Shown here piece after piece: positions 17,958 to 44,808 of a stretch of 64,000 nt of DNA; the first letter of the stretch is position 1, and each line of letters starts with the position of its first letter. Both the position numbers and the translations under genes were made by a program. The notes under the pieces were generated by a model. That model made no database searches. It was not told the DNA's origin and was given only the letters and a program-made list of their open reading frames with translations. The stretch comes from an uncultured Lachnospiraceae bacterium (lineage in GTDB: Bacteria > Bacillota > Clostridia > Lachnospirales > Lachnospiraceae), in contig CANQSB010000005.1 in NCBI GenBank assembly GCA_947626435.1, positions 62,001-126,000 of the forward strand. Reading direction: 5' to 3'.

Positions 17958-19084
17958 AGCTGAAAAATCTTTCTTATATGGACTGGTCGCGGGAAATAAA
18001 GCGTGAAGATAAAAAAATTATTATATACGGCGCGGGAATGATAGGGCAGATTGCTGTGCCTGATTTGATGCAGCGATTTAATCTGGAACACTATCTGCTG
18101 TTTTATGTAGATGCCGATCCCTATAAATTTGGAAAGACTGTGACGATTGGCAATTGCGGGTACGAGATAAAAATGCCGGAGGCTTTGCGGTCATATTGCT
18201 CTAAAAATAAAAATGTAACGCTTCTTATAACCAACAGCCATTTTGAGCCAGTCACAGCCGCGCTGGACAGTTTAGCGGAATTAGATGGCATTGAAGCCTG
18301 TATTTTACCAATTATGCAGATAGAAGAAGGAAAAAAAGAGGAAAAAACTGCGCCAATCCGGTCATCAAAAAAGCCAATTATCCCTAAGGTTATTCACTAT
18401 TGCTGGTTTTCAGGCAAAGCGATGCCTGACAGCTTTAAGCGCTGTATCGAAAGCTGGGAAAAGTACTGCCCTGATTATGAAATCAGAAGATGGGATGAGG
18501 GCAATTATGATATCACCAAAAACCAGTATATGAAGACAGCTTATGAAAAAGAAAAATGGGGATTTGTGCCTGATTATGCAAGGCTTGATATCCTATATAA
18601 TTATGGCGGTATTTATATTGATACGGATGTAGAGCTTGTGAGAAATCTGGACGAGCTGTTATACCAGCCGGCTTTCTGCGGCGTAGAGAAATGGGGCAAT
18701 ATCAATATGGGTGGCTGCAGCGGTGCGGTGAAGGGACACCCTATGATTCGTCGGCTGATTGAGGCAAGGGAAAATGTTTCATTTATCAGAGAGGATGGCA
18801 GCCTGAATTTGGAAACTTGCGGTATATATGAGACACAGCCGTTTATCAAAGAAGGGATGCGCGTAAATAATCAGGTGCAGACAGTGTGTGGCATGACAGT
18901 TTATTCATCTGATTATTTTCATCCTTATGATTATATGAGCGGCGAACTGACTATGACAAAAAATACATTTTCCATACATCATTTTAATGGCGGCTGGCTT
19001 GATGATAAGGCAAAGGCGCAGAGAGAAAAGACGCAGAAGCAGTATCAGGCAATTTTGCAGCGAATGGAAGAAGAAAATGATTGA
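17951..19084 (+). CDS. GT32-like glycosyltransferase with N-terminal GAG Rossmann module
   Basis: About 377 residues. An N-terminal module begins 'KKIIIYGAGMIGQIAV' and resembles a small nucleotide-binding Rossmann domain; the catalytic part starts at about 140 with 'IPKVIHYCWFSGKAMPDSFKRC' and has the DXD motif in 'YGGIYIDTDVE', typical of capsular GT32/OCH1-like sugar transferases. The start is placed at 17951 rather than the in-frame 17933 because GAAGAGG lies at 17938-17944. It overlaps the previous gene by 7 bases and the next by 8, implying translational coupling. Confidence 0.85.
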   Translation: MLKLKNLSYMDWSREIKREDKKIIIYGAGMIGQIAVPDLMQRFNLEHYLLFYVDADPYKFGKTVTIGNCGYEIKMPEALRSYCSKNKNVTLLITNSHFEPVTAALDSLAELDGIEACILPIMQIEEGKKEEKTAPIRSSKKPIIPKVIHYCWFSGKAMPDSFKRCIESWEKYCPDYEIRRWDEGNYDITKNQYMKTAYEKEKWGFVPDYARLDILYNYGGIYIDTDVELVRNLDELLYQPAFCGVEKWGNINMGGCSGAVKGHPMIRRLIEARENVSFIREDGSLNLETCGIYETQPFIKEGMRVNNQVQTVCGMTVYSSDYFHPYDYMSGELTMTKNTFSIHHFNGGWLDDKAKAQREKTQKQYQAILQRMEEEND

Positions 19085-20282
19085 CGTACAAGTAAGCAAA
19101 AAACAATATCCGCTGCTCAGCGTGATCATACCTGTGTATAATGCTGTGCCCTACTTAAAGAAATGTCTGGACAGTGTGGTAAAGCAGACATATAAAAATC
19201 TGGAGATTTTGTTAATTGATGACGGTTCAACAGATGAAAGCCCGGCATTATGCGATAAATATGCGGAGACTGATGACAGGATAAAAGTGGTTCACAAAAA
19301 AAATGAAGGGCTGGTGAGGGCAAGGAAAACAGGTGTATCATATGCCACAGGAGAATATATAACCTATGTGGATGCGGATGATTGGATTGATATAAATGCG
19401 TATGAGAGGATTTTAAACAGCTCGTTGAAGAATAGTGCAGATTTGATTTTGTATGGTCTGACAGAAGAATATGAGGATGTTTCTGTAGAAAAAGCAAATC
19501 TGTTTGAGGAAGGATATTATGTGGGAAAAGAAATTGCGAAAAAATTATATCCAAAAATGCTTTGCAGCGATGTGTTTTTTCGATTTGGAATTATACCGAA
19601 TTTATTTTGTAAGTTAGTCAAACGTGAAGTTTTGCTAAAAGTACAGCAAATGGTCGGTGATGAAGTAACGTTTGGCGAGGACGCAGACTGCACATATCAA
19701 CTGCTGCTTGAAGTGGAAAGTGTGCAGATTGTGAATTATGCACTGTACCATTACCGTAAAAGACATGATTCTATGGTATGGGAGAATACAGCTTTTCCAA
19801 AGCTTCAGTGTCTTTATCGTGATCTGAAGAGAGCGTTTGAAAAGAGCGCACAGCGAGAAATGCTGATACCGCAGCTTTATAAGTACATGCTTTTCATATT
19901 GCTTTTAAAATCAGCAGAGCGCTTTATGGATTGTGAAACTTTTATGAAATACTTCACAAATAAAAAGATTGTTTTGTATGGCGCGGGCGGCTTTGGACAG
20001 GCAATATATCGCGCGTTGGCAGAAAAAAATACATGTGAGATCGTGCTGTGGGCAGATCAAAAATACAAGGCATATCAAGAGCTTGGGTTGTCAGTAAGTG
20101 CCGTTAGTAAAATTTCAGACTGCGAGTATGACAGTATTTTTATAGCTGTTTTAGATATGCGGATATGTGAAAAAATCGCGGAAAAACTTGTGACTCAGGG
20201 AATATGTGCAGACAGGATTCACTATATCGCGCCAACGGCGGATTTGTTAGAGAAAGCCAGGCAGATTTTGGAAACAGAATAA
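19077..20282 (+). CDS. GT2 glycosyltransferase with C-terminal GAG Rossmann module
   Basis: About 401 residues. Classic GT-A family 2 N-terminus 'LLSVIIPVYNAVPYLKKCLDSVVKQTYKNLE' in pieces, nucleotide-binding 'IDDGSTDES' and metal-binding 'YVDADDWID'. From about 295 a second domain begins 'KKIVLYGAGGFGQAIYRAL', the same module as in neighbouring proteins but here C-terminal. The ATG at 19077 overlaps the upstream stop; a longer frame from 18987 lies inside the previous gene and is rejected. Role: transfer of a sugar in the surface glycan. Confidence 0.9.
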   Translation: MIDVQVSKKQYPLLSVIIPVYNAVPYLKKCLDSVVKQTYKNLEILLIDDGSTDESPALCDKYAETDDRIKVVHKKNEGLVRARKTGVSYATGEYITYVDADDWIDINAYERILNSSLKNSADLILYGLTEEYEDVSVEKANLFEEGYYVGKEIAKKLYPKMLCSDVFFRFGIIPNLFCKLVKREVLLKVQQMVGDEVTFGEDADCTYQLLLEVESVQIVNYALYHYRKRHDSMVWENTAFPKLQCLYRDLKRAFEKSAQREMLIPQLYKYMLFILLLKSAERFMDCETFMKYFTNKKIVLYGAGGFGQAIYRALAEKNTCEIVLWADQKYKAYQELGLSVSAVSKISDCEYDSIFIAVLDMRICEKIAEKLVTQGICADRIHYIAPTADLLEKARQILETE

Positions 20283-20312
20283 AGAAATGAATGGTTTCGA
20301 GATGGAGAGCAG

Positions 20313-22976
20313 ATGGAAAATGATTATGTAAGCCAAAAAAGCAGACCTGAAATTAGTATCGTAATGCCCGTGTATAATGGGGAAGCCTATCTGAGAGAGG
20401 CAGTTGAAAGCATTCTTGCGCAGACATTTGCAGACTGGGAGCTTATTTTTGTGGATGACTGTTCTACGGATTCTTCGCCTGCAATTATGAAAGAGTATAA
20501 ATCAAAGGATAAGCGGATCGGGATTATTCACAATGAAACGAATCAGAAACTGCCGGGTTCTTTAAACATTGGATTTTCACAGGCAAGGGGAAAATACTAT
20601 ACATGGACATCCGATGACAATCGTTATAAGCCGCAAGCCTTGGAAGAAATGAGGCGTTTCCTTGAGATGCACAATGAAGGCAGTTTTGTTTATGCGGATA
20701 TGGATTTTATAGATGAGGCGGGGAGAAAAACAGGTCATTTATCACGGAATGAAAATGAAATATACAGCTGCAATCCGGTAGGCGCCTGTTTTTTATACCG
20801 CAGTGACGCGGCTCGCCAAGTAGGCGGATATGACGCTGATATGTTCCTTGTGGAAGATTATGATTATTGGCTCAGATTTGCAAAGCGTTATGGTATAAAC
20901 CACCTTGCTGAATGTCTGTATGAGTACCGCCAGCATGGCAAAAGCCTGACACAGAAACGGGAAAGAGAGATTGCCAAACAACTGGAGAAACTGCGTTATC
21001 GTGAGATTGATTTTTTGCTCGCCAATGCAGATGAATGTGAAAAAGAGCGTTTGTTTTGGGATATGTGGCGGCAGAAGGGAAGCAGAAAGGAATACCTTAA
21101 GGAAAAGTTTTTTGTAAACGGAGGTCTTCCACAGTCGCTGCGGTGGATAGAGAGGAAAAGGGAAATGGACGAAAACAAAAAAATAATTTTATTCGGTGCG
21201 GGTGCGTTTGGGAAAAAGGCGCTTGACTATTTTGGTGAAGAGCGAGTTGCTTATTATTTGGACAATAATGAGGCAATGGCGGGAAGTTTTGTCAATGGTA
21301 AAGAAGTTATCTCATTTTCGCATTTTATGGGAATTAAAGATGAATACCAGATCGTCATATCCGTGGATGCAAGGAAAGTGCCGACGCTTGCAGCACAGCT
21401 TGAAGAAAATGGAATTACGGAATATGTGGCTTATTTAGAGCTTGTAAATCATCTGAAAAAGCCATCGGAGGGTGCAGTTGCGTGGTTGGATGTCTGTAAA
21501 AAAGCAAGAAAGTGGATTGAAAAAAACAGCATATCGGGCGGCGGTATTATCAATAACAGCAAGCTGCCTGAAAGCTATCCCGAGGTGACCGGATACTATA
21601 TTCCGACACTGATGAGATGGGGATTTTTGGAGTTAGCAGTGTCTTATGCAAAATGGCTATGTTCTATACAGCACTCGGATGGTGCATGGTATGATACTGA
21701 AGGCAAAAATCCATATGTGTTTGATACCGCGCAAATATTGAAAGGATTGCTGGCTGTCAGAGACAGGGTTGCCGGAGTTGATACAGCTATTCGCAAGGGG
21801 TGCGACTGGATTTTATCCAATATAAAGGAAAACGGAAGATTGACTACGCCATCAAAGGAAGAATGGGGAGAAGAAGGCGTATGTTCAGAATTGATTCACT
21901 TGTATTGCTTGTCGCCGTTGTATGAGGCGGCTGATGTATTTGGAGAGAAAAAGTACCGCGAAGCTTCTGACAAGGTGGCTGATTACTATATTACAGAGCA
22001 CGGTGAAGAAATCAGAAACTTTGGATTTCTGTCACATTTTTATGCCTATGTTATGGAGGCTCTGTGTGACATTGGCAGAGAGAATCTGGCTAGGGAATCT
22101 ATGAAACAGCTTGAAAAGCTTTTGGACGAAAAGGGATATGTCCCGGCTTATCGTGATGTGAACTGGGTCTGTTCGACAGGAATGTTTCAACTTGCGATTG
22201 TGTGGTTTAAACTGGGGGATTTGGAGCATGGGAATAAAGCTTTAAACTATGCGGCAAAATTGCAGAATGAAAGCGGCGGATGGTACGGAAGCTATCCAAC
22301 GATTGATAATCCAAAAGCGTCTGATAGGAAAGAATATCCTGATTACATAGCAGATGCGGAAATAAGCTGGGCAGTGAAATATTTTCTTGATGCTGTATAT
22401 TTTAAAAATAAGCTGGAGTTTGAGCAGCAGGCGGACAGCTTTTCTGATTATATAGAGGAAGAAGACGGTAGATATCAGGTGATTTTTAATGAAGTTAAAA
22501 ATCATAACGCAAAGAAGGTTTTGGATGTCGGCTGTGGAAAAGGGAGATATCTGAAAAATCTGCAAAAAGCAATTCCTGATGCTGTATATAGCGGGGTGGA
22601 TTTGTCTGTGAATGTGATGGCAGATATTCTGGCACCGATAGAGAAAAAAGAAGGCATTTTGACACAGCTTCCATATGAAAATGAAACATTTGATTTGGTA
22701 TATGCTGTAGAATCCTTAGAGCATAGTATTTTTCCCGATAATGCGCTGCGTGAACTGCTTAGGGTGACTAAAGCGGGCGGCGAGCTAGTAGTTATTGATA
22801 AAAACAAATCAGCGATGGGGTTGCTTGAGATAGATGAGTGGGAGCAGTGGTTTACGGATGAATTGTTTGAGAGAATTGCGAAAGAAGAAAAATGTAATTT
22901 GAAGATTATAGAAAATGTGTCATATGAAAATGTAATTGCGGATGGATTGTTTAATGCCTGGGTATTGAAAAAATAA
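20313..22976 (+). CDS. Four-domain protein: GT2 + Rossmann module + alpha-toroid + SAM methyltransferase
   Basis: 887 residues. Domain 1 (about 10-260) is a GT2 transferase ('ISIVMPVYNGEAYL', 'DDCSTDSSP', 'ADMDFIDEAG'). Domain 2 (about 285-385) is the recurring module 'KIILFGAGAFGKKAL'. Domain 3 (about 395-700) is helical with 'SIQHSDGAWYD', 'LQNESGGWYGSYP' repeats resembling an alpha/alpha toroid of the terpene-cyclase/glycan-binding kind. Domain 4 (about 725-887) is a class I methyltransferase with 'VLDVGCGKGRYLK'. It probably adds and methylates a sugar in one polypeptide. The fusion order is unusual. Confidence 0.88.
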   Translation: MENDYVSQKSRPEISIVMPVYNGEAYLREAVESILAQTFADWELIFVDDCSTDSSPAIMKEYKSKDKRIGIIHNETNQKLPGSLNIGFSQARGKYYTWTSDDNRYKPQALEEMRRFLEMHNEGSFVYADMDFIDEAGRKTGHLSRNENEIYSCNPVGACFLYRSDAARQVGGYDADMFLVEDYDYWLRFAKRYGINHLAECLYEYRQHGKSLTQKREREIAKQLEKLRYREIDFLLANADECEKERLFWDMWRQKGSRKEYLKEKFFVNGGLPQSLRWIERKREMDENKKIILFGAGAFGKKALDYFGEERVAYYLDNNEAMAGSFVNGKEVISFSHFMGIKDEYQIVISVDARKVPTLAAQLEENGITEYVAYLELVNHLKKPSEGAVAWLDVCKKARKWIEKNSISGGGIINNSKLPESYPEVTGYYIPTLMRWGFLELAVSYAKWLCSIQHSDGAWYDTEGKNPYVFDTAQILKGLLAVRDRVAGVDTAIRKGCDWILSNIKENGRLTTPSKEEWGEEGVCSELIHLYCLSPLYEAADVFGEKKYREASDKVADYYITEHGEEIRNFGFLSHFYAYVMEALCDIGRENLARESMKQLEKLLDEKGYVPAYRDVNWVCSTGMFQLAIVWFKLGDLEHGNKALNYAAKLQNESGGWYGSYPTIDNPKASDRKEYPDYIADAEISWAVKYFLDAVYFKNKLEFEQQADSFSDYIEEEDGRYQVIFNEVKNHNAKKVLDVGCGKGRYLKNLQKAIPDAVYSGVDLSVNVMADILAPIEKKEGILTQLPYENETFDLVYAVESLEHSIFPDNALRELLRVTKAGGELVVIDKNKSAMGLLEIDEWEQWFTDELFERIAKEEKCNLKIIENVSYENVIADGLFNAWVLKK

Positions 22977-23032
22977 ATAATTTGTATGAGAAATGCCATA
23001 AATTGCAAAGCAATGAGGATGGAGACAGAGCA

Positions 23033-25303
23033 ATGGAAAAGATTATTTTATTTGGAGCAGGCAATATAGGAAAAGAAGCACTGCTGTATTTTGGCGAAGA
23101 AAACATTTTTTGCTTTTGTGACAACAACTCAGAATTATGGGGAAAAGAAGTACTTGGCAAAAGGGTGATTGCACCTGAAAAACTAAAGCATTATAAAGAG
23201 AGTTTAATTATAATTCTTGCCGCAGAAGAGCATATATGTGATGCGATGGGGGATCAGCTGCAAAGAGAACTTCATATAAATTGTTTCTTGTCGTATAAAG
23301 CATTAAAAAGATATTTTGAGAAAAAAAGTTCTGTTGAGGAGTTCATATCTGATTGTAATGATAGTGTCAGCATATATAGATGGATGTACTTATGTATGGA
23401 CGAAGCGTTAAAGAAGTTACAGGATAAAATAGAGTATTTTGAGAATCACACAGATATTACAAAGATGAAACCTGCAACGGGCTTTGTCAGGAAAAAACAA
23501 TTGCAGCAGATTGCGTTCGTAGAAGCTTTTATGAGAGATTTTCAACATTTAGACCTTCATCCGTTTATAGTTGCGGGGACTCTTATTGGCAGAGTACGGC
23601 ATGGTGGGTTTATACCATGGGATGATGATTTAGACTTTGGTTTAATAAGAGAAGAATATGACAGATTGATAGAATACTTTGAAAAGAACCATCATGTTGA
23701 ACTTAATTCAGAAAAACTGAGTGAATATAGCAATGAAAAGCATTTAATCAGGATGGATGCTTTGGTGAAAAAATATCCGAATCAATATTTGTTGGATATT
23801 AGCGTAGATCAGATACAGGTAATGAAGGGGACTTCAGGCTTAGATAGAATTGCCATAGATTTCTTTGCGTATGACTATTATAAGGAAGATTATGGTATAG
23901 AAGAACATCTTGAGTATTTAAAAAAAATCAAGAAAAAGATAAATGAGATTGATATCATTTCGGATATTGTCAAATTTTTGCGAATGGAGATTAAACGAAA
24001 TGCAAATATTTCTGTAGAGAAAACAAGATATGTATTTCCAGGAATCGACAGCATGCAGGGATATTATAGAATTAACCAGACAAAAAAATGGGTAGAAACG
24101 GACAGTGTTTTCCCACTACAGAAATGCCTTTTTGAGAACACATATTTTTGGACGGCGAAGGATGAAAACGCGTTTTTGGAATATCAATATCCTGATTATA
24201 TGAGTTACCCAAAGGATATGGGAATAACAAGTCATGAATGGTATAAAGAGGAGTATTTTTCGCAAAATTATCCAAGTGTGGAATTTTATCTTATAGACGC
24301 CTTTGAAATATACCATTTTCTTCCATTGTATCGTTTGTTTGAACGTAACGGAATATATGTGAAATTTATTGCAGAACCGCAGAAATATAATACATCTGGG
24401 AAGTGGTTTGATTATGAACGGGCAGTAAAACTGTTGGATTTAAATGAGGTGCGCTATGGGAAGGAATGTAATATAAATTGTGATTTTGCTTTTACTACGC
24501 AGACGGCAGAAATATTGAGAAAATATAAGGGAAAGAAAGTGCATCTTGTATATGGATATTCATTTGGCAGATACTCGTTTTGTGAATCAGAAAATACGCT
24601 TGATGGATTTGATTATAAGCTCATACATGGAATCAATACATATAATATGCTGAAAAGCAAAGCGTTTGATGGACAAGTGTATATAGTGGGATATCCAAGG
24701 CATATGTGGAAATTCCCTGCAATTTATGATGAATCGCAGGATATAGAAAAAGAAGTAAAGAAGAAAAATATAGAGAAAAAGCCTATATTGATATATTTCC
24801 CAACTTGGGATGTGGGTTCGTCTATTTCTTGGTATTGGCAGGAGATGATGCGGTTGAAGGAAAAGTTTTTCGTCATTACTAAACTGCATCATTGTTCTGC
24901 AAGATTGCAGTCTGAACAGGAACACAGAACCATAATTGAGAAAATATCTGATATTATTTGTTTGGGAAACGATGAATTGAAAACGATTGCTGAAATAGGA
25001 GATATAGCTGTATGTGATGCAATGTCAGGATCAGCGTCGGAAGTTCCGTTACTGAATTCAGATATTGATTTACTTCTTTTGTTTTCTCCATTGCCTGAAA
25101 AGAATAATTTCAAAGAAGAGATTTTTGAATTTGCATGCTGTGTAAAAGAGCCAAGTGAGCTACAGCAAAGCTGTAATAGTGTTTTTGGGCATGACAGATA
25201 CAAGGAGAGAAGGAAAAAACTCATAGAGGATATTTTTCAAACGACAGATGAAACCTGTCTTGAAGATTTTTTGAGTATATTAAAACGGAGGAATAAAAGA
25301 TGA
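23033..25303 (+). CDS. LicD-family phosphotransferase fused to CDP-glycerol transferase-like domain
   Basis: About 756 residues. Starts with the recurring module 'KIILFGAGNIGKEALLYFG'; from about residue 150 a LicD/FKRP domain with 'AGTLIGRVRHGGFIPWDDD' and 'DLDFGL', the metal/nucleotide site of phosphocholine-type transferases. Residues 430-750 resemble a TagF-like GT-B fold ('KPILIYFPTWDVG', 'ICDAMSGSASEVPLL'-type segment). It likely moves a phospho-substituent such as phospho-alcohol or phospho-amino-acid from CDP to a sugar. The start at 23033 is preferred to the in-frame 22982 because it follows a GGATGGAGA site. Markedly AT-rich. Confidence 0.85.
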   Translation: MEKIILFGAGNIGKEALLYFGEENIFCFCDNNSELWGKEVLGKRVIAPEKLKHYKESLIIILAAEEHICDAMGDQLQRELHINCFLSYKALKRYFEKKSSVEEFISDCNDSVSIYRWMYLCMDEALKKLQDKIEYFENHTDITKMKPATGFVRKKQLQQIAFVEAFMRDFQHLDLHPFIVAGTLIGRVRHGGFIPWDDDLDFGLIREEYDRLIEYFEKNHHVELNSEKLSEYSNEKHLIRMDALVKKYPNQYLLDISVDQIQVMKGTSGLDRIAIDFFAYDYYKEDYGIEEHLEYLKKIKKKINEIDIISDIVKFLRMEIKRNANISVEKTRYVFPGIDSMQGYYRINQTKKWVETDSVFPLQKCLFENTYFWTAKDENAFLEYQYPDYMSYPKDMGITSHEWYKEEYFSQNYPSVEFYLIDAFEIYHFLPLYRLFERNGIYVKFIAEPQKYNTSGKWFDYERAVKLLDLNEVRYGKECNINCDFAFTTQTAEILRKYKGKKVHLVYGYSFGRYSFCESENTLDGFDYKLIHGINTYNMLKSKAFDGQVYIVGYPRHMWKFPAIYDESQDIEKEVKKKNIEKKPILIYFPTWDVGSSISWYWQEMMRLKEKFFVITKLHHCSARLQSEQEHRTIIEKISDIICLGNDELKTIAEIGDIAVCDAMSGSASEVPLLNSDIDLLLLFSPLPEKNNFKEEIFEFACCVKEPSELQQSCNSVFGHDRYKERRKKLIEDIFQTTDETCLEDFLSILKRRNKR

Positions 25304-27039
25304 ATCTGTCGGAACGATACAGAGAGAAACTGGAGAAGAAAACGGTGATTGCAAAAGCGGGAGAAGAACTAAATGATATTCTCTTGCAGATAGAGGTAAC
25401 AAACGCATGCAATCATAAATGCTATTTTTGTCCGAATGAATATAGTAGCCGACCTGTAAAAATGATGCCTTATGAATTCGCTGTAAAGGTTATGCGTGAG
25501 TGTGCGGATTTCCTTGGAACAGGGAAAAAGATATGTTTTCATATGAATGGGGAGCCTCTTTTATATAGACAGCTTCCTGACCTCGTAAGACTCTCAAAAG
25601 AGCTGGGATATGAATATTCTTTTGTGACCACTAATGGATCGGTTGCTACAGACGAATTGTTAAAAGCTTTGTTTGATGCAGGCTTGGATAGCATTAAATT
25701 TTCAATCAATGCAGGAACAAGGGAAAGTTATCTGAAAATTCATGGGAAAGATGATTTTGAAAAAGCAATACATGCTTTGAAGTTTGCCGCAGCATACCGG
25801 AAGGAGAGCAGGAAAAATTACAAAATTTATGTTTCATGTGTTGGAACAAAGGATAATTATACAGAGTTGGAAGAATTTGCAGCATATGCAGAAAGATTAT
25901 GTGATGAGGTTGTTTTTTACTATCCTTGCGGCTATGCTGGACAGAACAACCAGTTGGCAAAAGAGTTGCGTTGTGATTTGTCTAAACTTGATATTAAAAC
26001 ATTTGAGATTAAACATACCTGTCCATGTTCGGTTTTATGGAATTCTATCAATATCACATGCGAAGGCTTTTTATCATTATGCTGCAGTGAATCTGATAAT
26101 CGTTTAATTGTGGAAAATCTAAATGAAAAGGATGTTAAGGAGGCATGGTTGGGTGAAAAAATGCAGGCTATTAGGGCACTCCATACAGAGGGAAAGATTC
26201 AGAATACCCCTTGTTTTGCTTGCATTAATGAGACGGAATATGAGGAGAAAGAAATAGACAAGGAATTGTTTGCATTGGCATTAGAGCAGAGAAAAAAAAG
26301 CACAAGAATAAAAAAAGTACCAACAAGTATTGATTATGAGCAAACGAGACTCTTTTTTAATAAAAGAGCAGACAAGTATCAGGAATCGAACCCATATTCT
26401 GTAACCATGTATCAAGACAGCAACCCTGTGCTTGTAGAAGAAAGAAATAAAGCTGAGATGCGCAAATTGCTGCCCTTGTTGCGTTTGGATGTTGAATCTA
26501 GGGTTTTGGATGTTGCCTGTGGAATTGGGCGGTGGTCTGATGCAATTACAACGCAGATTGATGAGTATTGCGGCATAGATTTTAGTGAAAATTTGATAGA
26601 GTTAGCTCAAAAAAGGTCACATGCAGCAAATCGTTCTTTCCTTGTGGGTTCGGCGAATGAACTTCAGCATGTGCTTGTTTCAAATCAAAAAGGGAAATTT
26701 AACAGGATTCTTATGATAGGGATTTTCATGTACATAAATGATCAAGAGTTGGTGTCTGTTATGGAGCAGTTGATTGAGGTGTCTGCAGAGCATGCGATCA
26801 TATGTATTAGAGAGCCATTAGGAATTGATGAGCGTTTGACATTAAAAGATTTTTATTCAGAAGAGCTGAAGGATCATTACAATGCAATCTATAGGACTAG
26901 AACCGAAGTGGTAAATGTACTGCATAACACCTTGTTAAAAGCAGGATTCCGGATGACACAAAGTGGATTTTTGTTTTCAGATGACGAATTAAATAACCGC
27001 AAAGAAACTGCACAATATTATTTTATTTTGGAGAGATGA
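25300..27039 (+). CDS. Radical SAM/SPASM protein fused to a SAM methyltransferase
   Basis: 579 residues. N-terminal radical SAM motif 'CNHKCYFC' with Cys37, Cys41 and Cys44, then 'MNGEPLLY' and 'FSINAGTRESYLKIHG'. A SPASM-like auxiliary cluster region follows at about 240-310 ('CPCSVLWNS', 'LSLCCSE', 'CFACI'). From about 345 a separate class I methyltransferase has 'VLDVACGIGRWSDAI' and 'GIDFSENLIELA'. It could modify a sugar or amino acid substituent. It overlaps the preceding gene by 4 bases (ATGA). The substrate cannot be read from sequence. Confidence 0.88.
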   Translation: MNLSERYREKLEKKTVIAKAGEELNDILLQIEVTNACNHKCYFCPNEYSSRPVKMMPYEFAVKVMRECADFLGTGKKICFHMNGEPLLYRQLPDLVRLSKELGYEYSFVTTNGSVATDELLKALFDAGLDSIKFSINAGTRESYLKIHGKDDFEKAIHALKFAAAYRKESRKNYKIYVSCVGTKDNYTELEEFAAYAERLCDEVVFYYPCGYAGQNNQLAKELRCDLSKLDIKTFEIKHTCPCSVLWNSINITCEGFLSLCCSESDNRLIVENLNEKDVKEAWLGEKMQAIRALHTEGKIQNTPCFACINETEYEEKEIDKELFALALEQRKKSTRIKKVPTSIDYEQTRLFFNKRADKYQESNPYSVTMYQDSNPVLVEERNKAEMRKLLPLLRLDVESRVLDVACGIGRWSDAITTQIDEYCGIDFSENLIELAQKRSHAANRSFLVGSANELQHVLVSNQKGKFNRILMIGIFMYINDQELVSVMEQLIEVSAEHAIICIREPLGIDERLTLKDFYSEELKDHYNAIYRTRTEVVNVLHNTLLKAGFRMTQSGFLFSDDELNNRKETAQYYFILER

Positions 27040-27041
27040 TT

Positions 27042-27761
27042 ATGTATAAACAATCTATTGGAATTATTGGCGGCTTCGGAGCATATGCGACACTTGCGTT
27101 TTATCAAAGTATACTGGAGCAATTTGCTTCTGACAGTGAGAGAAATTATCCACATATTTATATGGACAATGATTTTACGATGCCGAGTAGAACAAGAGCG
27201 CTTTTATATGACAGAGGAGGCGTATCATACAATGAGATTGTCTGCATGATAGCAGATTCTATGAAAAAAATGGAAATGCTTGGCGCAGATCATATTGTGC
27301 TGGTATGCGGAACAGCGCATGCGTTTTTGCCGGATGTTTACAGAATAGTCCCGGAAGTAAAAACAAAAGTGTGCAACATCATTGAGATATTGAGAGATAA
27401 TTTGATAGCGGAAGGTATTTCGAAGGTTTTAGTGATTGCGGCGGAAGGAGCATTAAAGCAAGGACTTTATTCAGAGTATCTGCAAGGATTAGACTGCGTG
27501 AATCCGGGAGAAGAGTATTATGAGGAGATTAGGTACTTTATTGAAAGCGTAAAGAAAAATGTCCTGAACGAAAATATCTTTCAAAGATTTATTGATTTCT
27601 TACATGAATTTGAATGTAAAGAAATAATTTTAGGATGTACGGAATTTCCTGTTTTGATAGACGCTATAAGGAAGAGTTCGTTTTCGGGAGAAATTAATCG
27701 GTTTCATTTTTGGAATCCTTTGTTCCTGACTATAAAAAAGTTGAAAAAGATAATGGAGTAA
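27042..27761 (+). CDS. Aspartate/glutamate racemase family protein
   Basis: About 239 residues. 'SIGIIGGFGAYATLAFY' at the N-terminus and the two catalytic cysteines in 'VLVCGTAHAF' and 'ILGCTEFP' mark a cofactor-independent amino-acid racemase of the Asp/Glu/hydantoin superfamily. The start at 27042 is favoured over 27036 because GGAGAG ends directly before 27036, leaving no spacer. Within a cluster that also has a HAD phosphatase and a nucleotidyltransferase, it could invert an amino acid used as a glycan substituent, which is inference. Confidence 0.85.
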   Translation: MYKQSIGIIGGFGAYATLAFYQSILEQFASDSERNYPHIYMDNDFTMPSRTRALLYDRGGVSYNEIVCMIADSMKKMEMLGADHIVLVCGTAHAFLPDVYRIVPEVKTKVCNIIEILRDNLIAEGISKVLVIAAEGALKQGLYSEYLQGLDCVNPGEEYYEEIRYFIESVKKNVLNENIFQRFIDFLHEFECKEIILGCTEFPVLIDAIRKSSFSGEINRFHFWNPLFLTIKKLKKIME

Positions 27762-27772
27762 GAAAATAGGTT

Positions 27773-28375
27773 ATGAGCAGATATATTTTTTTGTTTGACT
27801 TGGATTCTACGATTACAAGACAGGAAATACTTCCAACCATTGCTAAGGAAGTTGGTGTATATGAGCAAATGAGGCGTATGACAGAGAGCAGTATGAAAGG
27901 GGAAGTGCCTTTTAAACAGAGTTTCCTACAAAGAGTGGAATTGTTAAAGCAGATTCCGGTATCGAAAGTACAGGATATTGTATCACATATAAAACTAAAC
28001 GAACATTTAGTGGAATTTATAGAAGACAATAAAAGCCGAAGTTATATTGTTACAGGGAATTTGGATGTGTGGATAGATGGTTTGATGATGAAATTGGGAA
28101 TGGAGAAAAATGTGTTTTCTTCCAAAGCATTAGTGGAAAATGATTATGTGCAGGAAGTCTTTAACATTGTGGATAAAGATGCTGTGATACGACAAATGAT
28201 ACTTCCGTTTGTAGCCGTGGGTGATGGTAATAATGATGCGGAGATGATTGAGGCGGCAGAAATTGGAATTGGATTTGGTGGTGTACGGACGATTGCACCT
28301 TCTGTTCTTGCCTGTGCCACACATATAGTATATCAGGAAGATAAGCTGGTGGATTTTTTACATAAATTAGTGTGA
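27773..28375 (+). CDS. HAD-family phosphatase, phosphoserine-phosphatase-like
   Basis: 200 residues with HAD motif I 'LFDLDSTIT', motif II 'YIVTGNLDVW' and motif III/IV 'FVAVGDGNNDAEMI'. The domain arrangement resembles SerB-type phosphatases. It overlaps the next open frame and lies 11 bases after the racemase gene. In Clostridioides difficile strain 630 a similar phosphatase lies in the type A flagellin-glycan operon that makes a phospho-N-methylthreonine substituent; the resemblance of context is notable but the substrate here is unproven. Confidence 0.85.
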   Translation: MSRYIFLFDLDSTITRQEILPTIAKEVGVYEQMRRMTESSMKGEVPFKQSFLQRVELLKQIPVSKVQDIVSHIKLNEHLVEFIEDNKSRSYIVTGNLDVWIDGLMMKLGMEKNVFSSKALVENDYVQEVFNIVDKDAVIRQMILPFVAVGDGNNDAEMIEAAEIGIGFGGVRTIAPSVLACATHIVYQEDKLVDFLHKLV

Positions 28376-28389
28376 AGGGTGGAGAAAGT

Positions 28390-29037
28390 ATGAGTTTTTC
28401 AAGAACAGTTATTATCAGCTGCGCAGGTATGGGAAATCGTTTGGGACTTGGAACGACTAAAGCATTACTGGAAATTGATGGAAAGCCGCTTATTATCAGA
28501 CACCTTGAATATTTGAAAGATGAAAATGATATAAGGATAGTGGTTGGATATCAGGCGGAAAAAGTAATAGAAACAGTAAATGCATATCGCAAAGATATTC
28601 TGTTTGTATTTAACCATGATTATAGAAATACTGGAACGGGTGCCAGTGTGGCATTGGCTTCCAGATATGCAAACGAATATATCTTGTCTTTAGACGGAGA
28701 TATGCTGGTTCATCCTGATGATATGCAGAAGATTTTGGCGTGTGAGCAAGAGTTTGTTGGCGGCAATCCGATAGAATCAGATGATCCATGGATGCTGCAG
28801 ACATATTGGCAGAATGGCTGTGAAATGGTAAGTGCTTTTTCGCATTGTATGGGTAATTATGAATGGAATGGAATCACGCAGATGCTTTCAAGCAAAATGC
28901 TTAATGGCAGCGGTCATGTTTTTCAACTCATAGAACCATATCTCCCAGTAGCATTTATGGAGCTGCGAACAAGGGAAATAGATACAGTCAATGATTATGA
29001 ACGAGCGACTAAATGGGTGAAGAATAAATTTCAGTAA
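28390..29037 (+). CDS. Nucleotidyltransferase (LicC/CDP-substrate type)
   Basis: About 215 residues. The N-terminal 'IISCAGMGNRLGLGTTKAL' is the nucleotide-binding loop of sugar/choline-phosphate nucleotidyltransferases, and 'YILSLDGDMLVHPDD' carries the metal-binding Asp. Length fits LicC-like cytidylyltransferases. The start at 28390 follows GGGTGGAG; the in-frame 28372 start would overlap the HAD gene. It should activate a phosphorylated small molecule, probably as a CDP derivative, for the LicD or TagF-like transferases in the cluster. Confidence 0.85.
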   Translation: MSFSRTVIISCAGMGNRLGLGTTKALLEIDGKPLIIRHLEYLKDENDIRIVVGYQAEKVIETVNAYRKDILFVFNHDYRNTGTGASVALASRYANEYILSLDGDMLVHPDDMQKILACEQEFVGGNPIESDDPWMLQTYWQNGCEMVSAFSHCMGNYEWNGITQMLSSKMLNGSGHVFQLIEPYLPVAFMELRTREIDTVNDYERATKWVKNKFQ

Positions 29038-29060
29038 TTTTGAAAGGAGTAGATTTTGGG

Positions 29061-30094
29061 ATGAAAGTATTGGTTTGGGGAACAGGAGAATGGGCAGACA
29101 GGTTGTTGCCAGTGATAGGAAATGAGGACGAAATAATAGGTTTTGTAGAAAGCGAAAAAAGCAAAGATTTTTTTCGTGGGAAAAAGGTCTATGGTGCAAA
29201 TGAAATTAAAGAAATAGATTGTGATGTTATTGCTATTATCAATTCGCATGCAGACGAAATACAGTATGAAATAGAAAAGCAAGGGATTCAAAAGGAAAAA
29301 GTAATATTTCCTAACACAAGCAAAATTGGAATTGTTGGAGATTTTTGCGGAAACGGGGGGGGGGGGTATACAGATTAGATTGGCTAGGAACTGAAAAGTG
29401 CAGCACATGGATAAGTTTTGGATATGCTATTTTTACAAATTCCATTAAAATTTCCGGAAAGGTTCGGACAGTATTGAATCTACAGGATTTTTGGAAAAAT
29501 AAAATTGTTTGGGAACCTCCTGTGCAGACGCAGAAAACGCAACAGGAATTTTTGGAAACATATTTTATTCGGAATTTAAATAAGGATGATGTGGTTTGCG
29601 ATTTTGCTTGTGCCGATGGACTATGGAGTGAAGTTGTTGCGCCTTATGTGAAACGGGTAGACGGATTTGACTGTTCCGAAAAAATGCTTGAAACTGCCAG
29701 AAAAAATTCAGAGGAAAAGCGGTTAAACAATATTTTTTATCAGTATATGGATGCTTTTAATGTGCGTTTTGAATGTAGATATGACCATATTATGATGCTG
29801 GGGCTGCTTACATGCATTGATGATGACAAGACAGCAGATAGAATTGTTAAAACCGTGGCAGAAAGCATAAAGGTAGGAGGGTATCTGATTGTTAGAGATA
29901 CGCTCAATATGTATGAGCCTGATGATGTTTATTATGATGAACCAAATTACAGCGCAATATATCGGGCAAAGGAGAATTATGAACGAATATATTTGAGAAA
30001 TGGATTTGAATTGATTGCATATCGATACTTAAATCCTTATTCCAGTCATCCAATAGAATTAGGCAGTCATGGGTATGTATTTAGGAAAAAGTAA
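29061..30094 (+). CDS. Phase-variable Rossmann-module/SAM-methyltransferase gene, currently out of frame
   Basis: The first frame (29061-29378) encodes the recurring module 'KVLVWGTGEWADRLLPV' and runs into a 12-G tract, giving four glycines and then 'YTD' and a stop. The methyltransferase frame (open from about 29345 to 30094, 'VVCDFACADGLWSEVV', 'MMLGLLTCIDDDKTAD') is offset. One extra G (13) or two fewer (10) would join them into a single 344-residue protein. So the gene is read here as OFF. The alternative is a sequencing error in the homopolymer. The second half has no good start of its own with a ribosome binding site. Confidence 0.85.
29355..29366 (+). repeat. Poly-G tract (12 G) within a coding region
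   Basis: Twelve consecutive G residues in a strongly AT-rich neighbourhood. Mononucleotide G tracts of this length are unstable through slipped-strand mispairing and drive ON/OFF switching of surface-glycan genes in other bacteria such as Campylobacter. Confidence 0.95.
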
Positions 30095-30111
30095 CTATCT
30101 TCATATATTAA

Positions 30112-30240
30112 ATGCGGAGAAAACACACTTTATTTGGTTGTGAAAAAATCGGGCAGGAAGCAGCGGAGTATTTTGAAAAAAATAATGTAGCATATTTTGT
30201 GTATGATAATGCTGATATGGAAGACGGGGTGCAACAATGA
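30112..30240 (+). CDS. Orphan 42-residue copy of the GAG Rossmann module start
   Basis: ATG at 30112, stop TGA at 30238-30240 overlapping the wecB start (ATGA). The peptide includes 'TLFGCEKIGQEAAEYFEKNN' and 'VAYFVYDNADMEDG', closely resembling the first 40 residues of the LicD fusion protein ('ILFGAGNIGKEALLYFGEEN'), but the second Gly of GAG is Cys-Glu here. It looks like the stump of a lost larger gene, kept perhaps for translational coupling to wecB. No obvious strong ribosome binding site. Confidence 0.6.
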   Translation: MRRKHTLFGCEKIGQEAAEYFEKNNVAYFVYDNADMEDGVQQ

Positions 30241-31352
30241 AAAAAATCAAAACAGCCGTCGTCTTTGGTACGCGTCCCGAGGCGATAAAGATGTGCCCGC
30301 TTGTTTTAGAACTGAAAAAACATGAGCAGATTGACTGTCGGGTGTATTTAACCGGGCAGCATCGGGAAATGTTAAATCAGGTAATGGAGATTTTTAAAAT
30401 TCAGGCGGATCAAAATTTAGATATTATGGGTGATGGTCAAACACTCACATCTATAACTGCAAATGTACTGAATAAGCTGGGAAAAGTGTTAGACGAAGAC
30501 CGTCCCGACATCATTCTTGTCCATGGTGATACATCTACGTCTTTTTCGGCGGCGCTGTCAGGCTTTTATAGACACATTCCTATAGGTCATGTGGAGGCAG
30601 GGCTCCGTACTTATAATATGGATTCGCCATATCCGGAGGAATTTAACAGACAAGCTGTAGACTTGATTTCAGAATTGTATTTCGCACCAACAGAGCTTGC
30701 GAGAAAACAGCTTTTGAATGAAAAAAAGAAGCCGGAGCATATCTTTGTTACGGGAAATACAGTAATAGATGCTTTGAAAAATACGGTTACGGATGATTAT
30801 TATAATGAACATCTTGAGTGGGCAGGAGACAGCCGTATGATTTTATTTACATCTCATAGACGGGAGAATATAGGTGAACCTATGCGGCACCTTTTTTATG
30901 CAGTTCAAAGGGTTGTGCATGATTTCCCAAATGTAAAACTGATTTATCCGATACACAAAAATCCAAAAGTTAGGGAAATTGCGCATGAAATTTTGGCTGA
31001 TGAGGAGCGGATTCGCATAATAGAGCCTTTGGATGTGTTTGACTTTCATAATTTCATGGCAAGAAGCTTTTTTGTTATGACTGACAGCGGAGGCATACAG
31101 GAAGAAGCCCCGGCTCTTGGGAAACCTGTGCTTGTTATGCGGGATACAACAGAACGCCCGGAAGGTGTTGAGGCAGGAACATTAAAATTAGTTGGGACAG
31201 ATGAGGATACAGTATATAAAGAAGCCAAAAGACTGCTTACAGATGAGAACAGTTATCAGGCAATGTGCCATGCCGTCAATCCTTATGGTGATGGAACTGC
31301 TTCAAAAAGAATAACAGAGGCGATTTTGAAATATTTTAATGCGGACAATTAA
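30237..31352 (+). CDS. wecB: UDP-N-acetylglucosamine 2-epimerase (non-hydrolysing)
   Basis: Interconverts UDP-GlcNAc and UDP-ManNAc for surface glycans. 371 residues with 'VVFGTRPEAIKMCPLVLEL', 'VHGDTSTSFSAALSGFY', 'HVEAGLRTY' and 'DSPYPEEFNRQ', then 'TDSGGIQEEAPALGKPVLVMRD TERPE' near the C-terminus. Overlaps the orphan module ORF by 4 bases. Last AT-rich gene of the cluster; codon use changes to GC-richer C-ending codons right after it. Confidence 0.96.
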   Translation: MKKIKTAVVFGTRPEAIKMCPLVLELKKHEQIDCRVYLTGQHREMLNQVMEIFKIQADQNLDIMGDGQTLTSITANVLNKLGKVLDEDRPDIILVHGDTSTSFSAALSGFYRHIPIGHVEAGLRTYNMDSPYPEEFNRQAVDLISELYFAPTELARKQLLNEKKKPEHIFVTGNTVIDALKNTVTDDYYNEHLEWAGDSRMILFTSHRRENIGEPMRHLFYAVQRVVHDFPNVKLIYPIHKNPKVREIAHEILADEERIRIIEPLDVFDFHNFMARSFFVMTDSGGIQEEAPALGKPVLVMRDTTERPEGVEAGTLKLVGTDEDTVYKEAKRLLTDENSYQAMCHAVNPYGDGTASKRITEAILKYFNADN

Positions 31353-31371
31353 TAAACAAAAGGAGACTACC

Positions 31372-32037
31372 ATGATGAACTTTGAACTGACAGCCTCAAT
31401 GATGTGCGCCAACTACGGCAGTCTTGAAAATGAAGTAAAAGCGCTAGAAGAAGGAGGCATAGACTCATTCCACATAGACATAATGGACGGTCGCTATGTC
31501 CCAAACTACGCAATGTCCCTAAACGACATGCGCTACATAGCCTGCGCGACAAGCAAGCCCCTTGATGTCCACTTAATGGTCGAACACCCAAACAACACAA
31601 TCGCCCTTTTCCTCGAAAATCTCCGCAAAGGCGACACAGTATATATTCACCCAGAGGCGGAATACCACCCGTCAACTACCCTGCAGAAAATCATCAACGC
31701 AGGCATGATACCAGGCATAGCGATAAATCCCGGCACTTCCGTGGAAACTGTCATGGAGATGCTCCGTATAGTAAAAAAAGTTCTCGTCATGTCAGTAAAT
31801 CCCGGCAACGCAGGTCAGATGTATCTTCCATATGTAGGCAAAAAAATCACAAAACTCCTTGCGCTAAAGGAGGACATGGACTTTGAACTCTACTGGGACG
31901 GAGCCTGCAGCGCGCAGCGTATTTTAGAATACGCTCCCAAAGGAGTAAAGGGCTTTGTCCTCGGCACGACGCTGCTTTTTGGCAAGGACAGGCCATATGG
32001 CGAGACACTTCAGAACATACGCGAATTAAAATTTTAA
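31372..32037 (+). CDS. Ribulose-phosphate 3-epimerase family protein
   Basis: 221 residues. The TIM-barrel signatures 'SFHIDIMDGRYVPN', 'LDVHLMVEHP' and 'VLVMSVNPGNAGQ' match Rpe, but the usual C-terminal 'DGG' strand reads 'YWDGACS', so it is a divergent paralog rather than the housekeeping enzyme. The start at 31372 follows AAGGAG by 7 bases; 31375 is also an ATG. Paired with the cytidylyltransferase gene next door, it may prepare a pentulose- or pentitol-phosphate for activation. Confidence 0.8.
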   Translation: MMNFELTASMMCANYGSLENEVKALEEGGIDSFHIDIMDGRYVPNYAMSLNDMRYIACATSKPLDVHLMVEHPNNTIALFLENLRKGDTVYIHPEAEYHPSTTLQKIINAGMIPGIAINPGTSVETVMEMLRIVKKVLVMSVNPGNAGQMYLPYVGKKITKLLALKEDMDFELYWDGACSAQRILEYAPKGVKGFVLGTTLLFGKDRPYGETLQNIRELKF

Positions 32038-32100
32038 TTCCTTCCTGCCGCAGTCACACCGGCAATAATAACTCCGATTATTCAAAACAGGGTGAAAAAT

Positions 32101-32862
32101 ATGAACACAGCGCTTTTATTGTCAGGCGGCATCGGTTCCCGCCTGCAGTCGGAAATGCCAAAGCAATATATATGCATAAACGGTAAAATGCTGATTACAT
32201 ACGCGCTCGAAACGCTGTCCGCCTCCGAATTTATTGATGAAATACAGATAGTATCAGCGCAGGAATGGCGTGATGCCATCATATCAGACGCGCAGAAACA
32301 TAAAATCCGTGCAGACAAGCTGAAGGGCTTCTCCAGCCCTGGCGCAAACCGTCAGATCTCTATATTGAGCGGAATGCAGGGAATTTTGCAGCGAAAAAAT
32401 AATGCATTGAATACAGACGCACTGGGCGCAGATGCAATGAGCACATATGCAATTAATGACTGCGACACAATATTTATCCACGATGCCGCCCGTCCATTGC
32501 TTACCCAAAGTCAAATTTCATACTGTTTCAAGGCTCTTAAATGCCACGATGGCGTTATGCCGGTGCTGCCAATGAAGGACACGGTATATTTAAGCGAAGA
32601 CGGTGACACTGTATCAAAGCTTTTAGACAGGGAAAAAATATTCGCCGGGCAGGCGCCCGAGCTTTTTAATTTAAAAAAATACTATCAGGCAAATATAGCG
32701 CTGATGCCGGATGATATAATGAAAATAAACGGCTCAACCGAACCCGCAGTTCTTGCAGGAATGGACATAGCAATGATTGCAGGCGACGAAAACAACTTTA
32801 AAATCACTACACAGGCGGATTTAGACAGATTTAAGTCTGTTATTACTGGAAAAATCGGCTGA
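32101..32862 (+). CDS. IspD/TarI-family cytidylyltransferase
   Basis: 253 residues. 'LLLSGGIGSRLQSEMPKQY' is the CTP-binding loop and 'IFIHDAARPLLTQ' the second signature of the IspD/TarI family. IspD works on methylerythritol phosphate and TarI on ribitol phosphate; sequence alone does not separate them here. Adjacent to an Rpe-like gene and at the end of a glycan cluster, a role in CDP-polyol or CDP-sugar synthesis is more likely than isoprenoid synthesis. A GTG at 32092 is in frame but the ATG at 32101 has the better site. Confidence 0.82.
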   Translation: MNTALLLSGGIGSRLQSEMPKQYICINGKMLITYALETLSASEFIDEIQIVSAQEWRDAIISDAQKHKIRADKLKGFSSPGANRQISILSGMQGILQRKNNALNTDALGADAMSTYAINDCDTIFIHDAARPLLTQSQISYCFKALKCHDGVMPVLPMKDTVYLSEDGDTVSKLLDREKIFAGQAPELFNLKKYYQANIALMPDDIMKINGSTEPAVLAGMDIAMIAGDENNFKITTQADLDRFKSVITGKIG

Positions 32863-41784: not shown

Positions 41785-42108
41785 GAAATAATCAAAAGGC
41801 AATGACAAAGAGGAGTATTCGCAAGCCCCTTTACAGAGAAAAAAGCCCATAGGCTGTAAGGCTTTTAAAAGGAAGAAGCGAAGAAGGTAGCTTTGAAGCC
41901 TGATATCTGAATACGGCGCATATCATCAAGGCGCATTAAGCCATACATGGCGGCAGCGTCTCATCGCCGAGGTAAGATTTCACGTTTTGCCCGCGTTATA
42001 GGGCAGGGCTTTGAATGAAGCCTGCAGAGGGAGAAAGCATTTCTCCGAACAAAGGTGGTACCGCGTATTTACACGCCCTTTGCCGAGCAGTCGGCAGAGG
42101 GTGTTTTT
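41785..42108 (+). promoter_or_regulatory. T-box riboswitch leader of valS, Val specifier
   Basis: T-box core AGGTGGTACCGCG at 42053-42065, terminator stem 42073-42086/42091-42104 and T run to 42108. The specifier reads GTA (Val) at 41887-41889, followed by GCTTTGAAGCC in the same 11-base register used for the aspS leader. Uncharged tRNA-Val would allow read-through into valS. Confidence 0.95.
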
Positions 42109-42153
42109 GATATACGGGCGGCTAGGATTAAGTTAGTAATTGGAGGAATCTAT

Positions 42154-44808
42154 ATGAGTAAGGAATTGGCAAAAACCTATGATCCTCACGGACTTGAGGA
42201 CAGAATTTATGAAAAGTGGCTTGAAAAAAAGTATTTCCACGCAGAAGTTGACAGAAGTAAAAAACCATTTACAATCGTGATACCGCCCCCAAATATCACA
42301 GGACAGCTTCATATGGGGCACGCGCTTGACAATACCATGCAGGATATACTTATCCGCTTTAAAAGAATGCAGGGCTATAACGCGCTCTGGCAGCCTGGCA
42401 CAGACCACGCGAGCATCGCGACAGAAGTAAAAATCATAGAAAAGCTCAAGGAGGAAGGCATTGATAAGCACGACCTCGGGCGCGAGAAATTCCTCGAGCG
42501 CGCATGGGAGTGGAAAAAAGAGTATGGCGGAAGAATCATAAGCCAGCTCAAAAAGCTTGGCTCATCATGCGACTGGGACAGAGAGCGCTTTACCATGGAC
42601 GAGGGCTGCAATAAGGCTGTTACGGAAGTTTTCTGTAAAATGCATGAGAAAGGCTATATTTATAAAGGCGCGAGGATAATCAACTGGTGTCCCGTATGTA
42701 ACACCTCTATTTCAGATGCCGAGGTTGAGTACGAGGAACAGGCAGGGCATTTGTGGCACATCAAATACCCAGTGATTAATGATGACGGCACGGAAACGGG
42801 AGAATACCTGACTTTTGCAACGACAAGACCTGAGACAATGCTCGGCGATACGGCGGTGGCAATCCACCCTGATGATGAGCGGTATGCGCATCTGAGGGGC
42901 AAGAAGCTTCGTCTGCCGCTTATGAACCGCGAGATTCCGGTAGTTGAGGACACATATGTTGATATGGAGTTTGGTACAGGCGTCGTAAAGATTACGCCCG
43001 CGCATGATCCGAACGACTTCGAGGTAGGTAAGCGCCACAACCTGCCTATGATAAACATAATGAATGACGACGCGACTATAAATGAAAACGGCGGCAAATT
43101 TGCGGGAATGGACAGGTATGCGGCGAGAAAAGCGATTGTTGACGAGCTTGACAGCCTGGGGCTTCTTGTAAAGATTGAGGATTACAGCCATAACGTAGGC
43201 ACGCATGACCGCTGCAAGACCACGATTGAGCCGCTTGTAAAGCAGCAGTGGTTTGTAAAGATGGACGAGCTTATAAAGCCTGCGGTAGAGGCAGTAAAAA
43301 ACGGCGAAATAAAACTTATCCCCGAGAGAATGGAAAAGACCTACTATAATTGGACAGACAATATCAAGGACTGGTGCATATCAAGGCAGCTATGGTGGGG
43401 ACATAGGATTCCCGCGTATTACTGTCAGGATTGCGGCGAGATAGTGGTTGCAAAGGCTATGCCCGAGACATGCCCTAAGTGCGGCAAAAATCACTTTGAG
43501 CAGGATCCCGACACGCTTGATACATGGTTTTCTTCGGCGCTGTGGCCTTTTTCAACGCTGGGCTGGCCTGAAAAGACTGAGGACTTGGAGTATTTTTACC
43601 CTACAGACGTGCTTGTGACGGGATATGACATTATTTTCTTCTGGGTAATCAGAATGATTTTCTCAGGCTATGAAAATATGGGCGAGCGGCCGTTTAAGAC
43701 AGTGCTTTTCCATGGACTGGTACGCGATTCGCAGGGCAGAAAGATGTCAAAGTCGCTTGGCAACGGCATCGATCCGCTTGAAATAATAGAAAAATACGGC
43801 GCAGACGCGCTTAGAATGACGCTCATTACAGGAAACGCGCCTGGAAACGATATGCGTTTTTACTATGAGAGGGTTGAGGCAAACCGCAACTTCGCAAATA
43901 AAATCTGGAACGCGTCGCGCTTTATTATGATGAATATTGAGGGCAAAGAGGTAACTGACGCGTCAGGCACGCTTGAACCTGCGGACCGCTGGATAATGTC
44001 AAAGCTCAACACGCTTGTAAAAGACGTGACCGACAATATGGAGAGCTTTGAGCTTGGCATTGCCGTACAGAAGATTTATGATTTTATCTGGGACGAGTTC
44101 TGCGACTGGTATATTGAGATGGTAAAGCCGAGGCTTTATAATTCAGACGATGCCGCATCACAGAATGCCGCGCTTTGGACATTGAAAACAGTGCTTATTG
44201 ATGCGCTAAAGCTTTTGCACCCGTATATGCCGTTTATTACGGAGGAGATTTTCTGCACGCTGCAGTCCGAGGAGGAGTCGATTATGATTTCCAAGTGGCC
44301 TGAGTTTAGGGCGGACAGGAGCTTTCCGAAGGAGGAGAAGGCTGTCGAGATTATCAAGGAGGCTGTGCGCGGGATCAGAAATGTAAGGACTTCGATGAAT
44401 GTCGCACCGTCAAAAAAGGCTCATGTTTTTATAGTCTCGCAGAATGATGAGATAAGGAGCGTTTTTGAGGAAGGCAGGCTTTTCTTTGCGCCGCTTGCGT
44501 ATGCGTCTGAGGTGACTATACAGGGCAGCAGGGACAATATCGCAGACGACGCTGTATCGGTAGTAATTGCAAACGCCGACATATACATTCCCTTTGCAGA
44601 ACTGGTGGACATCAAGCAGGAGATAGAGCGTCTTGAAAAAGAGGAAAAACGCCTTGATGGTGAGCTTGAAAGAGTAAACAAAATGCTCAACAATGACAAA
44701 TTTATGTCAAAGGCGCCTGAGGCAAAAATTGCCGAGGAGAGGGAAAAATTAACAAAATATACACAAATGAGGCAACAAGTTACAGAACGACTTGCGCAAT
44801 TGAGGTAA
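42154..44808 (+). CDS. valS: Valyl-tRNA synthetase
   Basis: 884 residues, class I synthetase. '[21 protein letters not shown]' contains the HIGH-equivalent HMGH, and '[16 protein letters not shown]' the KMSKS loop. An editing domain lies between ('[20 protein letters not shown]'), zinc-type cysteines near 'CPKCGKNH', and a C-terminal coiled coil '[21 protein letters not shown]'. The ATG at 42154 follows GGAGG; an in-frame upstream start at 42055 lies inside the T-box terminator and is rejected. Confidence 0.97.

Follow-up and report, generated by a model that had tools for sequence, protein, structure and literature searches.

The split gene at 29061-30094 raises the question of whether a run of guanines inside it serves as a switch. 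We analysed it within a window of 64,000 nucleotides from the genome of an uncultured member of the Lachnospiraceae, a major family of gut commensals. Reading the sequence directly, we found 12 consecutive G on the forward strand at 29355-29366, followed by TAT. On the basis of this sequence, of run-length statistics and of flank counts we propose that the tract is a slippage switch, which is in the OFF state as assembled.

A G12 tract separates two frames

The N-terminal half (29061-29378, forward strand) starts at the ATG at 29061, with a GGAG-type ribosome site directly 5' of it, reads through the tract and ends right past it at a TAG (29376-29378). The C-terminal half (29345-30094, forward strand) lies in a different frame. 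Since the two frames differ by one residue class, a tract of either 10 or 13 G would place them in one frame. A recount of the tract, the frames of the open reading frames and this arithmetic agree with the first-pass annotation, which had described 12 G that put an N-terminal Rossmann module and a C-terminal SAM methyltransferase out of frame, with 13 or 10 G restoring one protein. The same annotation called the surrounding DNA AT-rich, which is right in direction but too strong in degree, as the window has a GC content of 43% and the bias is mild.

The tract sits in the linker between the two domains. Before the tract the sole start codon in the C frame is the TTG at 29345, with a GGAG, seen by eye, four bases upstream. 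This spacing is short yet not impossible for initiation. Past the tract the candidates are TTG 29474, GTG 29522, TTG 29552, GTG 29591, GTG 29648 and a first ATG at 29684, which falls within the methyltransferase domain. It therefore appears unlikely that the C half is initiated by itself.

Domains of the split gene

By profile search the C half belongs to the class I SAM-dependent methyltransferases, with a match to Methyltransf_25 above the cut-off (E 9.8e-12, 45.9 bits against 27), and its best match in the PDB is 1wzn (E 6.7e-09). A structure model of this half had a mean pLDDT of 33.6, too poor for use. The N half is Rossmann-like and resembles the C2185-like N-terminal module (PF22674, E 5.6e-05), a likeness only, as its 23.8 bits lie under the curated cut-off of 27. 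It had no match among solved structures at E<=0.01.

When 200 genomes of the family were searched with PF22674, 17 had a match, which in 8 exceeded the cut-off; here and in the counts below the family is that of the source genome (G000), taken as Lachnospiraceae. Among named relatives, its AspRS is closest to those of MAGs labelled Lachnospiraceae (L050, 91%) or Acetatifactor (88-89%). We scanned ten ORFs among 23 loci for the module. It scored above the cut-off ahead of DUF1919 (L130) and in a methyltransferase (L132), a GT4 (L133) and a TupA-type ATP-grasp protein (L147). Scores under the cut-off were obtained for two TylF methyltransferases (L134 and L136), a Caps_synth protein (L142) and a second GT4 (L148), and the scan reported no match in L145 or L150. 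The C2185-like module gives the impression of a widely shared N-terminal unit in enzymes of glycan synthesis or modification. The protein encoded by L132 has the domain order of the window gene, with C2185-like_N (30.8 bits) and Methyltransf_25 joined in a single frame of 346 residues, and this natural fusion carries no G tract. The product of the split gene is probably a sugar methyltransferase, with a glycan as the substrate that its gene cluster would suggest.

Searches with the C half recovered only the C half itself, whether among 38 genus genomes (E<=1e-15), among 392 order genomes (E<=1e-12) or in genome_contigs. The window gene is therefore without a homolog at the thresholds used, and its tract cannot be compared between genomes at this very gene. 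Length variants of the tract, sought in viral contigs with two flank patterns, also gave no match.

The surrounding gene cluster

The genes around the locus point to a surface polymer. On the forward strand the region begins with a CDP-glycerol:poly(glycerophosphate) glycerophosphotransferase-like protein (15414-17957; PF04464, 28 bits against a cut-off of 22.1), followed by three glycosyltransferase genes (17933-22976; PF04488, PF00535, PF08241), the third with a methyltransferase domain, and a LicD family protein (22982-25303; PF04991). Directly 5' of the split gene, and on the same strand, profile matches identified genes for a radical SAM plus methyltransferase protein, an Asp/Glu racemase family protein, a HAD phosphatase and an NTP transferase (25300-29037). 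On the 3' side the forward strand carries a short ORF (30112-30240), the translation of which resembles, by eye, what is left of another Rossmann N module. The stop codon of this ORF overlaps the beginning of the gene for a UDP-GlcNAc 2-epimerase of the WecB type (30237-31352; TIGR00236, E 4.5e-152, above the cut-off). An IspD-like cytidylyltransferase (32092-32862, forward strand; PF01128 above the cut-off) may be of the ribitol-5-phosphate type (NF001183, under the cut-off), and a gene of the ribulose-phosphate 3-epimerase family also falls within this region. We infer that the genes of 15414-32862 together make a surface polymer and that some of them are teichoic-acid-like.

A TnpB-like protein (13804-15138; Cas12f1-like_TNB match) lies at the edge of the cluster. 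Further along the window, at 42055-44808, a valyl-tRNA synthetase-type protein contains a rubredoxin-like match (RUBY_RBDX) at residues 455-480.

Long G tracts across the genome

The source genome (3.70 Mb, 95.8% complete) gave 60 overlapping G9 hits, which correspond to 30 tracts of 9 or more G. Extrapolating the decay of G-run lengths from the window, with the G12 tract left out, we expected 0.03 such runs per window and 1.7 per genome. Against this expectation of 1.7 the 30 tracts are far longer than chance would give, as is typical of homopolymeric contingency loci. Of 45 runs of 7 or more G with a preceding base, 16 have a length of 7 or 8; the tracts themselves comprise 16 with a length of exactly 9 and 14 that exceed it. 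Runs of 11 A or T were absent from this genome. For 14 of the 30 the next tract is no more than 10 kb away, where 4.3 would be expected. In 80 loci around AspRS (1.43 Mb) we found three G tracts of 8 or more, and such tracts are therefore not general background near that housekeeping gene.

Placed by eye, 25 of the 30 tracts lie in genes; of the other five, three occupy promoter spacers, one a 5' leader and one a small ORF. The last is a G10 (L048:5082-5091) within a phage-looking gene block. The 25 genic tracts, also judged by eye, include 20 with a frame open through them (2 near the gene end), 3 that split their gene, 1 at a gene start and 1 at a contig end. By Pfam family, 19 of the 25 tract genes were grouped as glycan or envelope modification, a raw count with no whole-genome background. 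These are GT2, GT4/GT1, PMT_2, YfhO, four Acyl_transf_3, MBOAT, a hexapeptide transferase, a formyltransferase, an epimerase, a sulfatase, an ATP-grasp protein and five methyltransferases, including the window gene. The others are two DUFs (DUF6492 and DUF6044) and four genes without a Pfam match. The GT4-type glycosyltransferase gene in L045 is also split, and its G11 leaves Glyco_transf_4 on the 5' side and Glycos_transf_1, from profile position 61 on, on the 3' side. Another tract (L041:7040) ends 10 nt ahead of the ATG of a GT4 gene.

Tracts in promoter spacers

In the promoter poly-G spacers of Neisseria, such as that of porA, the tract lies between -35 and -10 and its length sets the promoter spacing. 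Three tracts of the source genome (L036, L044 and L047) occupy the same position, and two of them precede BspA-type LRR_5 proteins. An open frame also crosses the L044 tract, and its reading as a promoter therefore rests on TTGACA and TATAAT. Altogether 11 tract sites carry TTGACA, with spacers of 16-21. Unlike the Neisseria examples these lie in Clostridia, and 6 of the 11 share a 19-bp spacer, five of them as TTGACA-N9-G10-TATAAT. TTGACA-spacer-G10-12-TATA, with spacers of 19-21 bp, also precedes a set of five LysM paralogs whose starts are signal-like (L163, L229, L233, L237 and L241; four in G028, one in G026). The L047 promoter tract is G10 in all three genomes compared. Across these sites the length of a tract shifts either a reading frame or a promoter spacing, the property on which a contingency locus depends.

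Frame status and length differences in genus mates

At least one G9 hit was found in 29 of 35 genus mates, with a range of 1 to 174 overlapping hits when runs at contig ends are counted. From the 125 tracts in four of these mates we fetched 28 of 29 in G028, 17 of 23 in G026, 8 of 23 in G035 and 8 loci (9 tracts) of 50 in G017. In G028 ten tracts fall within 26 kb. By eye, four tracts among the 8 of 23 fetched from G035 (L153, L173, L177 and L181) come directly after the signal-peptide-like starts of secreted-looking proteins.

Among 91 tracts in five genus genomes, 41 were open with 40 or more codons on each side, 18 were split, and 32 were neither (gene ends, gene starts or no long frame). 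The 41 open of 59 exceed the one third given by random lengths (p 2e-08), and 18 split genes of 59 are many. A looser automatic count (48 open and 26 split of 74) was dropped, as it had classed tracts at gene starts, for example L031:13121, as split. By strand, 74 of the 91 tracts were sense, 5 antisense and 12 without a long ORF. We do not use this sense bias as evidence, since short G runs are equally biased (15 to 2, p 0.60).

The window gene has no homolog for a comparison of tract length between related genomes, and the comparison was made at sibling tracts. Lengths differ at two of them. The MBOAT acyltransferase gene of the source genome (L034) has G11 and is open over 388+189 codons, whereas its counterpart in G028 (L230) has G9 and is shifted past the tract; the two share 97.4% identity across 1209 positions, and in nine of these N stands in for the tract. 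The second difference concerns the downstream side, as L039:4906 (G10) and L224:1480 (G9) are 95-96% identical 3' of the tract and unrelated 5' of it. This tract therefore also looks like a recombination joint. The TGA of its ORF overlaps the ATG of the next gene, and the tract may therefore set translational coupling. Lengths are the same at the L047 promoter and in the homologous methyltransferase genes L041:8293 and L156 (G026), both with G9 at the same place. Of these two genes the source copy is split and the G026 copy open; the alignment shows one extra base in the source copy, and a C follows its tract.

Further comparisons bear on how the tracts originate. At the YfhO site ten genus-mate homologs encode Gly-Gly, and the source genome encodes Gly-Gly-Gly with a G9. 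Weak alignments of the GT2 gene (30-36% identity, four loci) have a gap at or near the tract. In the MBOAT gene (L034:4559-6223) the tract lies inside an insertion of about 40 residues after a GGN motif, and five homologs are without the insertion. These patterns suggest that tracts may be born in places where extra glycines are tolerated.

A proposed contingency locus and its alternatives

The best-supported reading of the window tract is a contingency locus controlled by slippage, given the tracts across the genome, the difference in both length and frame between L034 and L230, the GT4 gene split by a tract and the surface-gene content. We consider it likely that the G12 tract is such a homopolymeric contingency locus, caught in its OFF state. 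Strand slippage during replication would add or remove G at the tract. With 12 G the cell would make only a truncated N module, whereas an in-frame number would yield a single protein in which the N-terminal Rossmann module is joined to the methyltransferase. The full protein would methylate a sugar or another unit of the surface polymer made by the cluster. The window tract would then be one of about 30 such sites in the genome, located in coding regions, promoter spacers and one 5' leader. We infer slippage and reversibility at this tract from its siblings, and methyl transfer and the glycan substrate are likewise presumptive. A switching locus had already been suggested in the first-pass annotation, and the set of tracts, the split frames and the length change at a sister locus support that suggestion; its methyl group, glycan and mixed population retain the status of predictions.

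An assembly error, with a true tract that is in frame and a gene that is always ON, seems improbable to us. G tracts are hard to count and assemblies may miscount them, and database lengths can differ from measured populations, according to PMC9187656. However, one miscount would leave the 30 tracts, the excess of runs of 9 or more, the split GT4 and the G11/G9 difference in MBOAT unexplained. Less probable still is slippage during transcription or translation that yields a fixed fraction of full protein without heritable switching. G runs are slippery for polymerases and a gene split between frames fits this idea, but neither the 11 promoter-spacer tracts with TTGACA nor the mix of open and split alleles is accounted for. 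We give slightly less credence to a decayed pseudogene with a fixed frameshift, as the tract is the only interruption of the two halves in about 1 kb, even though a similar remnant-like N module adjoins at 30112-30240 and no orthologs were found at the thresholds used. The least likely arrangement is that of two separate genes with the tract incidental to expression, where the GGAG four bases ahead of TTG 29345 and the existence of stand-alone methyltransferases of this size must be set against the short spacing, the weak start codon and the same-order fusion in L132.

Relation to known systems

A slippage-controlled contingency locus would place the source genome beside the poly-G phasome of Campylobacter jejuni, whose G tracts number in the tens, measure about 9-12 and lie within glycan loci, in genes for sugar transferases and methyltransferases, with mixed ON and OFF states. 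The two are alike in tract number, length, gene types, clustering in glycan loci and mixed states. They differ in that our genome belongs to an unrelated phylum and that promoter-spacer tracts before LRR and LysM proteins occur here in addition. In the gut commensal Bifidobacterium breve, PMC9187656 describes G tracts at sortase-pilus loci, where several tract lengths coexist in one culture. The likeness is that the two portions of a gene for a surface protein are joined or separated by a G tract; the differences are the phylum and the scale, with two pilus loci in the studied strain (PMC9187656) against about 30 mostly glycan loci here.

No description of such poly-G phase variation in Lachnospiraceae was found in the literature searched, and within that scope the earlier remark that it may be undescribed stands. 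We regard the tracts as a new and extensive case of slippage phase variation, a phenomenon already known, plus one unexplained regularity. If this is true, some Lachnospiraceae would possess a phasome on the scale of Campylobacter, through which surface glycans, BspA-like proteins and LysM proteins would vary randomly within one strain. This would bear on phage resistance, immune recognition and the tracking of strains in metagenomes.

A TAT context around the tracts

The regularity concerns the bases on either side of the tracts. In the five genus genomes 57 of the 91 tracts have TAT directly 3' of them, compared with 8 of 182 G5-6 runs in the same loci (Fisher p 4e-26), and TAC ends 1-3 nt ahead of 51 of 91 tracts (17+23+11) against 12 of 182 short runs. 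Tracts at contig ends with under 12-15 nt of flank were excluded from these counts. The context is the same in genes and in promoters (L031-L048, L153-L182, L224-L243). A codon or amino-acid cause is ruled out, as TAT is present in all three reading phases (16/21 in phase 0, 19/31 in phase 1 and 12/22 in phase 2). Shared descent is also ruled out for most sites, as only 19 of 95 show similarity to one another within 400 nt (E<=1e-5), forming 7 groups. Counting against a TAT rule of wide reach, only 4 of 24 tracts have TAT behind them in six further genomes, of which two belong to this genus.

In the 397 genomes of the family we counted 238 occurrences of G9-TAT, spread over 92 genomes, and 37 of the reversed TAT-G9, spread over 25, or 177 to 31 when G000, G035 and G546 are removed; 305 of the 397 have no G9-TAT site. 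In 375 class genomes outside the family the ratio is 59 to 17, with G9-TAT in 33 genomes. Long G tracts, common in this genus, are sporadic elsewhere in Clostridia. The view that they are uncommon in Clostridia, put forward in the first-pass annotation, therefore holds at class level and fails within the genus. Judged by eye, about 10 of the 20 G9-TAT loci listed are located within or at a sense frame of some length, unlike the rest; contingency loci therefore cannot account for every such site. G10-TATA is present in at least 120 stretches of IMG/VR against 73 with the reversed pattern, and part of the asymmetry is therefore general.

The context can be written roughly as TAC-(0-2 nt)-G9+-TAT, a near inverted repeat (ATAC...GTAT) that appears to recur across mostly unrelated genes and promoters. 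Tentatively, and with considerable doubt, we suggest that the tracts may be more than simple repeats under selection and may be shaped by a sequence-specific process, in which the context may raise slippage or mark sites of seeding or exchange, amounting to a tuned, motif-guided hypermutation of the surface in Lachnospiraceae. Candidate causes of the TAT flank are that slippage is selected for, that the DNA next to the tract melts easily, or that tracts arise by seeding. A limited literature search on flanks found no mention of a TAT flank of contingency tracts. The TAT context holds whatever the reading phase, and as a feature of contingency tracts it lends itself to direct testing.
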